Source: Paracoccus sp. JM45
Lineage (GTDB): Bacteria; Pseudomonadota; Alphaproteobacteria; Rhodobacterales; Rhodobacteraceae
Assembly (NCBI RefSeq): GCF_003590715.1
Contig: NZ_QQVY01000001.1
Coordinates: 62,001-126,000 of the forward strand
DNA length: 64,000 bases
Direction: 5' to 3'
Shown: in pieces, positions 45,799 to 48,225 of the stretch
Numbering within the stretch: position 1 is the stretch's first letter
Layout: each line of letters starts with the position of its first letter
The notes under the pieces: model-generated
Seen by the model: only the letters and a program-made list of their open reading frames with translations
What the model was told of the DNA's origin: nothing
Databases searched by the model: none
Translations under genes and position numbers: made by a program

Positions 45799-46806
45799 AT
45801 GGACATGCACGCACCCCTGATTGACCCCTTCGCCCGCCCCATCAACTATTTGCGGGTGTCGGTCACTGACCGCTGCGATTTCCGCTGTGTGTATTGCATG
45901 GCCGAACATATGCAGTTCCTGCCCAAAGCAGAGCTGCTGACGCTGGAGGAGCTGGACCGCCTGTGCACCACCTTCGTCGGTCTGGGCGTTCGCAAGCTGC
46001 GCATCACCGGCGGTGAACCGCTGGTCCGGCGCGGCATCATGGGGTTTTTCCGCCAGATGTCCCGCCATCTGGGTAAGGGTCTGGATGAATTGACCCTGAC
46101 CACCAACGGCAGCCAGTTGGGCAAATACGCGGCTGAATTGTATGAATGTGGTGTCCGCCGCGTGAATGTCTCACTGGACACGCTGGATACGGCGAAATTT
46201 GCCGAAATCACCCGCTGGGGCCGTTTGGCCCAAGTGCTGGATGGCATCAAGGCCGCGAAAGCCGCCGGATTGCAGGTCAAAATCAACGCCGTGGCGCTGA
46301 AGGGTGTGAATGATGTCGAATTGTTCGATCTGGTCAAATGGTGTAGTGACGAAGGCCATGACCTGACCTTCATCGAGGTGATGCCGATGGGCGACCTTGG
46401 AAACGAGGATCGACTGGACCAATATTGGCCCCTGTCAGACCTGCGCGACCAACTGACCGAACGCTTTACCTTACTGGATCTGGCCGAACGCACTGGCGGC
46501 CCTGCCCGATATGTCAAACTGGCCGAAACGGGTCAGAAGATCGGCTTTATTACCCCGATGACGCATAATTTCTGCGAAAGCTGCAACCGTGTGCGCGTCA
46601 CCTGCACGGGCGAATTGTTCATGTGTCTGGGTCAGGAAGATAACGCCGATCTGCGGGCACCATTGCGGGCATATTCCGACGACACGGCCCTGCGTGAAGA
46701 AATCCGCAATGCAATCTCGCGCAAACCTAAGGGCCATGATTTCGATTATTCCCGCCAGAAAATCGAAGGCCAGATGACCCGCCACATGAGCCATACTGGC
46801 GGTTGA
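45799..46806 (+). CDS. moaA: GTP 3',8-cyclase MoaA
   Basis: Radical SAM enzyme for the first step of molybdopterin synthesis, with MoaC. 335 residues: SAM cluster Cys26-x3-Cys30-x2-Cys33 in [20 protein letters not shown], the C-terminal cluster [15 protein letters not shown], and the terminal Gly-Gly (HTGG) that is functionally important in MoaA. It is 17 kb from moaC-moeA, in its own unit. Confidence 0.97.
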
Positions 46807-46862
46807 TCTGGCTGGTATTTTGTTAACGACTTGTTAACCTTTCAGAGGTGTATTTTGAAAGG

Positions 46863-47003
46863 TTGAATCGTAAAACTGATTTGTCTGGCAGCATTGGTTG
46901 CACCGCAAATAGCATTAGCCCATGGCGGAGGATGCCGTAAAACTCTCCTCCGGGGCAATGCTGTCACATGGATAATTCCCGCGGGTCCGTCCATTGCCAC
47001 TAA
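46863..47003 (+). pseudogene. Frame-disrupted small secreted Cys/His-rich protein
   Basis: No intact frame exists, but three pieces join into a sensible small protein: a signal peptide (LICLAALVAPQIALA), HGGGCRK in one frame, then PPGQCCHMDNSRGSVHCH and TAA (47001-47003) in another. The breaks fall in two A4 runs, at 46872-46875 (one A too many if the start is TTG at 46863) and 46939-46942 (one A too few). Alternatively the start was ATG, now ATC at 46867, with AAAGG in front, needing only the second break. The Cys/His pattern with terminal VHCH recalls small YHYH-type exported proteins. It may be a pseudogene or a sequencing error in homopolymers. Confidence 0.6.
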
Positions 47004-47018
47004 ATTCTTAGGTTGAAA

Positions 47019-48152
47019 TTATTCTGCCGCGGCTTCGGCTGTGGCAGCTTCGGCGGTCAGTTTTTCGGCGCGTTCCTCGACCAGTTCGACGATGTGATCG
47101 ACCATCTTTTCGTTCGACAGCTTATGGCTTTGCTTGCCGGCCATATAGATCATGCCGCTGCCCGCACCGCCGCCGGTAAAGCCCAGATCGGTCATCAGCG
47201 CCTCGCCCGGGCCATTCACCACGCAGCCGATGATCGACAGGCTCATCGGGATCTTGATATGTTCCAGACGCTTTTCCAAAGCCTCGACCGTCTTGATGAC
47301 GTCAAAGCCCTGACGGGCGCAGCTGGGGCAGGAAATGATCTGAACACCACGGGTCCGCAGACCAAGGGATTTCAGGATCTCGAACCCGACTTTCACTTCC
47401 TCGACCGGATCGGCGGAAAGGCTGACGCGGATGGTGTCACCGATACCGGCCCAGAGCAGGTTGCCCATGCCGATAGCGGATTTGACCGTGCCACCGACAA
47501 AGCCGCCCGCCTCGGTGATGCCCAGATGGATCGGTGCGTCGGTGACATCGGCCAGCTGCTGATAGGCAGCAGCCGCCATGAAGATATCGCTGGCCTTCAC
47601 ACTGATCTTGAATTCATGAAAGTCGTTGTCCTGCAGGATCTTGATGTGATCCATACCGCTTTCGACCATCGCGTCGGGGCAAGGTTCACCGTATTTGTCC
47701 AGCAGATGCTTTTCCAGACTGCCCGCATTCACGCCGATCCGGATCGAACAGCCGTAATCCCGCGCAGCCTTGATCACCTCGCGGACGCGTTCGGGGCTGC
47801 CGATATTACCGGGATTGATCCGCAGACAGGCAGCGCCCGCCTGCGCGGCCTCGATCGCGCGTTTGTAGTGGAAATGGATATCCGCCACGATGGGCACGGG
47901 GCTTTGGCGGCAAATTTCTTTCAGCGCATGGGTGGTTTCCTGATCGGGTGCGCTGATGCGGACGATATCGGCACCGGCATCGGCGGCGCGGATCACCTGA
48001 TCCAGCGTGGCGCGGACATCATGGCCATTGGTATTGGTCATCGTCTGGACACTGATCGGCGCGTCGCCCCCGACGGGCACATTGCCAACCATGATCTGGC
48101 GGGATTTCCGACGCTCGATATTGCGCCATGGACGGATCGGGTTCAGCGACAT
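47019..48152 (-). CDS. ispG: 4-hydroxy-3-methylbut-2-en-1-yl diphosphate synthase IspG
   Basis: [4Fe-4S] enzyme of the MEP isoprenoid pathway. 377 residues from the start [20 protein letters not shown], which has GGAGG seven bases upstream; an ATG 42 bases earlier was rejected. Iron-sulfur Cys are in SCPSCARQG and [24 protein letters not shown] marks the barrel start. The C-terminus is Ala/Glu-rich ([14 protein letters not shown]). The stop is 15 bases from the disrupted small gene's stop. Confidence 0.96.
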
Positions 48153-48225
48153 CAGAAAGCCTCCGGTGGACGGGTTGCCCTTCAGATATGCCATGCAGGG
48201 CAGGACGACAACCGCCCCCCATGCA

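Follow-up and report, generated by a model that had tools for sequence, protein, structure and literature searches.

The gap between moaA and ispG in Paracoccus sp. JM45 holds what we take, with a probability of about 0.85, to be a copy, disabled only recently, of a very small gene encoding an exported peptide, whose intact relatives would act by the mechanism proposed below. The gap lies within a stretch of 64,000 nucleotides, referred to here as the window. The peptide trace in it is genuine, as seen both by direct reading and from orthologs at the same position in related genomes, and the intact relatives encode, by sequence, a signal peptide and, after it, a module some 27 residues long that is strongly conserved.

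A broken peptide gene between moaA and ispG

The initial annotation had described the gap as containing the remnant of a small secreted Cys/His-rich protein, read in two frames. Orthologs in the same gap of three Paracoccus genomes (G111, G113 and G010) bear this out, and the parts of the peptide do lie in two frames, HGGGCRK in one and SPPGQCCHMDNSRGSVHCH with its stop codon in the other (Table 1). A signal-like stretch precedes HGGGCRK, and together the two frames match the pattern HGGGCRK-x-SPPGQCCHMD-x3-G-x-VHCH plus signal peptide, apart from the residue at the lesion. A six-frame scan of the window for HGGGC[RQ]K, PGQCCH and V[HY]CH found each only in the relic. Both matches of the family profile in the JM45 genome fall on the relic locus, and there is no second copy at E 0.001. 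The coding stretch begins at about 46870 rather than at 46842, as originally annotated, and runs to 47003.

Table 1. Features of the moaA-ispG gap and its flanks, in window positions.
Feature	Positions	Strand	Remarks
moaA (GTP 3',8-cyclase), flank	45799..46806	+	TIGR02666 above cut-off
TTAA-N7-TTAA box TTAACGACTTGTTAA, candidate CtrA-type full site	46823..46837	.	ends 32 nt before former start codon
AAAGG, candidate ribosome-binding site	46858..46862	+	spacing as in G111
GTA replacing start codon (G111 GTG, G113 ATG)	46870..46872	+	start lost
Signal-peptide remnant VKLICLAALVAPQIALA	46870..46920	+	lacks 12 nt present in G111 and G113
HGGGCRK, first part of mature module	46921..46941	+	direct reading
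AAAAC lesion (AAAAGC in G111 and G113)	46939..46943	+	one base gone, frame shifts
Remaining mature module, SPPGQCCHMDNSRGSVHCH + TAA, shifted frame	46944..47003	+	direct reading
ispG (flavodoxin-dependent), flank	47019..48194	-	NF001540 above cut-off

Alignment of the window with the same-gap orthologs reveals three lesions: (i) GTA stands in place of the start codon, with the upstream AAAGG kept; (ii) 12 nt are deleted inside the signal sequence relative to G111 and G113; and (iii) the ortholog sequence AAAAGCTCT appears as AAAACTCT, one base fewer. An intact reading frame with a start codon is therefore absent from the window copy, which makes it a pseudogene member of the family, and with its start lost, its signal sequence shortened and a base missing from the module it is not expected to yield a working product. 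A pseudogene in decay, one of the options originally offered, is what these differences from the intact orthologs describe, and the nature of the breaks is other than was supposed. Instead of two indels in A-runs there is a start-codon substitution and a one-base deletion; on the simplest reading the base missing there is the G of a Ser codon, AGC, and not an A. The breaks had been placed at two identical CGTAAAACT contexts. The second does have the missing base, the window being one base short there relative to CGCAAAAGCTCT; the first has no indel, only GTA where the orthologs have GTG or ATG, and the alignment with G111 is free of indels from TTGAAAGG to CTGGC. The identity of the two contexts looks like coincidence.

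Intact and eroded copies in the same gap

A search of the genus with 1 kb around the site matched 122 of 125 genomes, the closest over the whole kilobase being G111 (82%), G113 (76%) and G010 (74%). From 30 genus loci we extracted the moaA-ispG gap of the 15, the window included, that had both flanking genes. An intact gene in one frame is present in G111 (Paracoccus sediminilitoris DSL-16), G113 and G010, and eroded traces are present in G084 and G125; the motifs HGGG, CCH, VHCH and PGQC are all missing from nine of the 15, four of which, measuring at least 880 nt, were judged by these motifs alone. The initial annotation had pointed to this gap in related genomes as bearing on its reading: a gene or trace is found in five of the 14 other gaps, those of the closest relatives, and none of the motifs in nine.

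Over the 26 module codons outside the lesion, the window differs from G113 by 12 silent and no replacing differences, from G111 by nine silent and two replacing, and from G010 by 14 silent and three replacing. The module codons that differ from G113 only silently, together with the still intact upstream box, indicate that the decay of the window copy is young. In a moaA+ispG tree (FastTree, 11 loci) the eroded G084 is sister to the intact G111 (support 0.988) and the window lies outside this pair (1.0), from which it follows that at least two independent losses of the gene have occurred in this gap; G125 is placed elsewhere, with weak support. The moaA-ispG gap thus offers a natural series of intact, freshly broken and eroded copies.

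A sequencing or assembly error, by which the strain itself would carry an intact gene and only the deposited letters be wrong, is improbable. It would explain why the mature module outside the lesion reads like an intact one. The homopolymer error that the initial annotation had considered nevertheless accounts poorly for lesions of three unlike kinds: a substituted start codon, the loss of 12 nt and the loss of a single base, the last of which is better read as a missing G than as a shortened A-run. A nearby species has, moreover, eroded the same gene independently, and a comparison of ORFs from the G111 and G113 stretches with the window, at more than 50% identity, turned up no convincing frame break elsewhere. 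Some of the ORFs in this comparison are themselves opposite-strand shadows; 23 of the 25 listed for G111 match a single window frame, as do all 11 listed for G113, and the two exceptions, which lie partly opposite moaA or ispG and extend into the next gene, are probably spurious.

Recoding, the third of the original options, would have to combine a -1 frameshift at the second CGTAAAACT with a non-standard start to give the full peptide. The amino acid conservation of both halves agrees with this, but the same-gap orthologs are read in one frame, the start codon has been lost as well, and the upstream frame reads CGT AAA ACT, so that a one-base backward slip would set the AAA tRNA on TAA and there is no X-XXY-YYZ site. 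We regard such a mechanism as very improbable. That two short peptides arose by chance in an intergenic gap is scarcely credible: the ORFs are very short, as such a view would have it, yet it is contradicted by the positional orthologs, by the pattern of silent sites and by over 200 homologous stretches.

A family of small exported peptides

The search of databases with the joined peptide that the initial annotation had envisaged yields many homologs. Its members share an exported module some 27 residues long, HGGGCRKSSPPGQCCHMDNS-x-G-x-VHCH. In GTDB contigs a profile built from 11 relatives gave 236 confirmed stretches; the 80 best of these are proteobacterial (Alpha, Beta and Gamma) by their titles, and the family is also found on 38 IMG/VR contigs. 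It is carried by 16 of the 125 genus genomes, the window and the eroded G125 included, and by 39 of 394 genomes of the family Rhodobacteraceae, again including the window. Phage records gave no match, unlike IMG/VR. Five plasmid records were matched by the joined peptide (tblastn) with no annotated feature beneath the match, which is only a hint of missed annotation since PLSDB gene tables have gaps and almost no genes are listed for two of the records.

Across 85 copies, H1, G2-4, C5, K7, S9, G12, C14, C15, H16, G22, H25, C26 and H27 never vary, and pairs of copies differ on average by 12.4 silent and 3.2 replacing codons. The 85 are what remains of 92 copies after removal of seven whose 27-codon frame ended other than in HCH. 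The invariance is partly built in and overstated, because retrieval required an exact AHGGGCRK or [PA]GQCCH[MA]D and each copy had to fit our strict pattern; looser searches return the variants RGGGC, HRGGC, HGGGCRR and CCHAG. The module is almost unchanged across three proteobacterial classes, whereas its signal peptide, its position and whether it is present at all vary, which suggests a strict biochemical task. In many Rhodobacteraceae copies (L204, L206, L207 and L209-L216) extra residues seem to lie between the signal peptide and HGGG, and the mature peptide may therefore not always begin with the module. A few genomes have two copies or a tandem piece: Halomonas litopenaei (L087) has two copies in one locus, and Paramesorhizobium deserti (L076) a partial tandem duplication.

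Some family copies are prophage cargo, given that the copy of L230 (3001-3144) lies beside a phage tail tape-measure gene and that of L231 (3001-3135) near a major head protein gene. Ten ORFs neighbouring the gene in ten IMG/VR loci comprise one match each to a tape-measure, a major head and an SbcC-like family, two matches to families of unknown function, and five ORFs that match nothing.

The family consists of conserved small exported peptides that have no over-cut-off model in Pfam or NCBIfam, and the strings HGGGCRK, GQCCHMD and HGGGCRKSSPPGQCCHMD occur in none of the papers searched. A peptide below the usual thresholds of gene calling and family building may be widely missed. Two direct handles on its role are the nuclease neighbour and the CtrA-type boxes described below.

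Relationship to known families

For 11 relatives, Pfam returned no family up to E 1 except PepSY_2 at 0.33 for one member, and PHROGs returned only four unnamed families, each for one member at E 0.066 or worse. NCBIfam gave no over-cut-off match for the joined window peptide or ten relatives, and a PDB sequence search gave only two matches (E 0.35 and 0.8). The PtrA model NF041599 matched four of 11 members with a best E of 4.2e-4; it was rejected at no more than 20.2 bits against a cut-off of 31, and the low scores and the span over residues 1-26 indicate that the match is mainly to the signal peptide. AimP, CpxP, mini_HHHH and a Vmc-like signal model, each matching single or few relatives far under cut-off, were likewise set aside.

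The closest likeness is to YHYH_alt (NF033223, cut-off 30 bits). The joined window peptide scores 11.4 bits against this model, and three of ten relatives match at E <= 1 with 15.5, 13.2 and 11.5 bits, all under cut-off. Compared profile to profile (hhalign, signal peptides included; 13 family members against five of the six genus YHYH_alt proteins, one being omitted), the two align over 43 columns with a probability of 96% and E 4.4e-9. Both have a signal-like N-terminus, and YHYH_alt shows H-[GP]-G-G ... CH-x5-G-x-[YF]-HCH, in which the spacing after CH is common to the two as CH-x5-G-x-[YV]-HCH, the peptide family having V for Y. In contrast to YHYH_alt, the peptide family has GGG and CH set five residues further apart, carries two additional Cys (in GGGC and as the first of CCH) and lacks a C-terminal domain, its total length being mostly 46-52 residues. 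The genus YHYH_alt proteins are about 100-110 residues long, with a C-terminus that we take to be Excalibur-like. From these sequence patterns we read the relationship as distant kinship or convergence, not membership.

A further likeness, by description only, is to the YHYH domain of jumbo phages, for which the excerpts of PMC7824862 report a Zn site predicted from conserved His. That domain is phage-borne, as some peptide copies are; unlike the peptide family, it occurs in fusion with tail proteins or lectins, and a His triad with an Asp characterises it.

An AlphaFold model from 13 sequences predicts a signal helix and a C-terminal hairpin with strands at 36-39 and 44-47, in which C36-H37 lies opposite H46-C47. 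Its quality is moderate, with a pLDDT of 76.8 overall and 83-86 by blocks at the hairpin, and a pTM of 0.34.

An SNase-type nuclease neighbour

ORF clustering of the best 80 GTDB loci found a sole recurring neighbour, an SNase (PF00565) present in ten of them, all ten over the Pfam cut-off. Nine of the ten genes adjoin the peptide gene at no more than about 410 nt, upstream or downstream and on either strand (L070, L073, L075, L081, L082, L109, L119, L138 and L140), and the tenth, in L122, lies at a distance of about 2 kb. The members of this cluster are separate ORFs, with only two long frames touching the peptide gene; a third neighbour cluster was rejected as a true neighbour, as all six of its ORFs overlap the peptide gene.

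When a profile made from the ten was run over the ORFs of all loci, it also matched L118 and L120 (GTDB), 3-4 kb away, and 6 of 38 IMG/VR, 1 of 20 genus, 2 of 5 plasmid, 2 of 29 Rhodobacteraceae and 1 of 17 YHYH_alt loci, against none of 71 control loci (293 kb); these locus sets overlap slightly, L201 resembling L140. Of the ten further matches in IMG/VR, genus, Rhodobacteraceae and YHYH_alt loci, which were checked against Pfam, eight were confirmed (four IMG/VR, one genus, two Rhodobacteraceae and one YHYH_alt), and L246 and L264 gave no Pfam match. In IMG/VR the SNase gene lies directly beside the peptide gene in L241, L244, L249 and L250. Most family loci, the window and its three same-gap orthologs among them, have no SNase neighbour. 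Among the papers searched, any two of YHYH, excalibur and thermonuclease together returned nothing related by title.

An upstream TTAA box and CtrA

The TGTTAAC repeats at 46821-46838, noted earlier as a promoter candidate, contain the TTAA-N7-TTAA box TTAACGACTTGTTAA, and this arrangement recurs upstream of relatives. According to the excerpts of PMC6180460, the full CtrA site of Rhodobacter sphaeroides is TTAA-N7-TTAA, as in the window, and sites with 6-bp spacing occur at flgB2p and fliI2p; those of PMC4046655 use TTAA-N7-TTAAC as the CtrA site of D. shibae. The R. sphaeroides promoters of PMC6180460 are flagellar with mapped starts, whereas the sites at the peptide genes are predicted only.

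Among 92 distinct copies of the family, paired TTAA motifs occur at spacing 6 five times, at spacing 7 three times and at other spacings from 2 to 15 three times in all, compared with zero, one and seven times in 616 control windows. All eight boxes at spacing 6 or 7 are upstream of the 27 copies labelled Rhodobacterales by title or genus; none is found at the other 65, many of which are alphaproteobacterial. Control upstream stretches of this first set gave 0 of 163, that is, 2 of 165 less two matches that proved to be boxes of the family itself, approached from ORFs on the opposite side. In a second set, the 26 pattern-fitting loci of 29 from the Rhodobacteraceae search, a box at spacing 6 or 7 precedes 12 copies, compared with 1 of 260 further stretches from these loci. 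Fisher's test gives p values of 6e-8 for the first set and 2e-13 for the second; both are too small, since the copies are related to one another and the controls are probably largely coding.

Duplicates and four loci that misfit the pattern (L095, L109, L129 and L139) had been dropped from the first set; no box precedes L095, L109 or L139, and a wider pattern also missed L129. Adding L109 and L139, labelled Rhodobacterales by title, and L166, labelled by genus, brings the first set to 8 of 30. With the three boxless loci that had been left out restored (L200, L203 and L217), the second stands at 12 of 29; the readings of L200 and L203 may be non-genuine copies, as the wider pattern places them far from the expected position. 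The upstream sequences of L196 and L201 in the second set match copies of the first, and neither has a box.

All six genus YHYH_alt proteins over cut-off (L170-L175) have overlapping TTAA-N6/7-TTAA boxes just upstream, and a box is found at YHYH_alt in three of the seven loci read from eight further Rhodobacteraceae loci. By their upstream sequence, the genus YHYH_alt genes may be CtrA targets. Among the papers searched, CtrA together with excalibur yielded nothing related by title.

Within the JM45 genome the box is not enriched, TTAAC-N5-GTTAA having six sites compared with five for a reversed control. The window box is one of the six; another, TTAACCTTGGGTTAA (L152, at 1501), precedes a GH108 endolysin-like gene, and a further one lies between a histidine kinase gene and a PAS-domain protein gene. 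The excerpts of PMC6473078 link an endolysin/holin pair to the release of gene-transfer agents (GTA) and divL to CtrA control, and describe the competence genes of D. shibae as CtrA-regulated; it is our guess that the box-associated genes of JM45 are counterparts of those. The genome encodes a CtrA-like protein at 341 bits, under the family cut-off of 350, and its gene is apparently split, with model positions 1-194 near an end of contig C3 (L191) and 193-224 near an end of contig C6 (L192).

Proposed function of the intact relatives

In Rhodobacterales, CtrA would activate the intact gene through the TTAA-N6/7-TTAA box tens of bases upstream, as the predicted sites suggest. The product would be exported to the periplasm or the outside and cleaved at A-x-A|H, so that the mature peptide would start with His. 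Its Cys and His residues, C36-H37 facing H46-C47 in the model, might then hold a metal ion or form disulfides, and the Cys/His content together with the predicted hairpin leads us to favour metal binding. The recurring SNase-type neighbour suggests a role with nucleic acids, in which the peptide would help, restrain or accompany exported breakdown or uptake of nucleic acid, placing it putatively beside nucleases.

It is quite possible, though we lean against it, that the intact family is not a metal peptide at all and is instead stabilised by disulfides, for example as an inhibitor or partner of a nuclease or as a secreted signal. Four Cys in an exported module of 27 residues could pair, and the SNase gene is the one recurring neighbour; against this, the CH-x5-G-x-[YV]-HCH spacing held in common with YHYH_alt would rather favour metal ligands.

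The widest form of the metal-binding proposal is tentative and, taken whole, unlikely: that these peptides are overlooked exported metallopeptides of about 27 residues, spread partly by prophages from alpha- to gammaproteobacteria, which, alongside exported SNase-type nucleases, act on nucleic acid beyond the inner membrane, belong in Rhodobacterales to a CtrA regulon with the YHYH_alt-Excalibur proteins, and are repeatedly gained and lost. If it were true, the peptide would act in a process timed by CtrA, for instance DNA uptake or receipt of gene-transfer agents, and the window relic would be an illustration of that repeated gain and loss.
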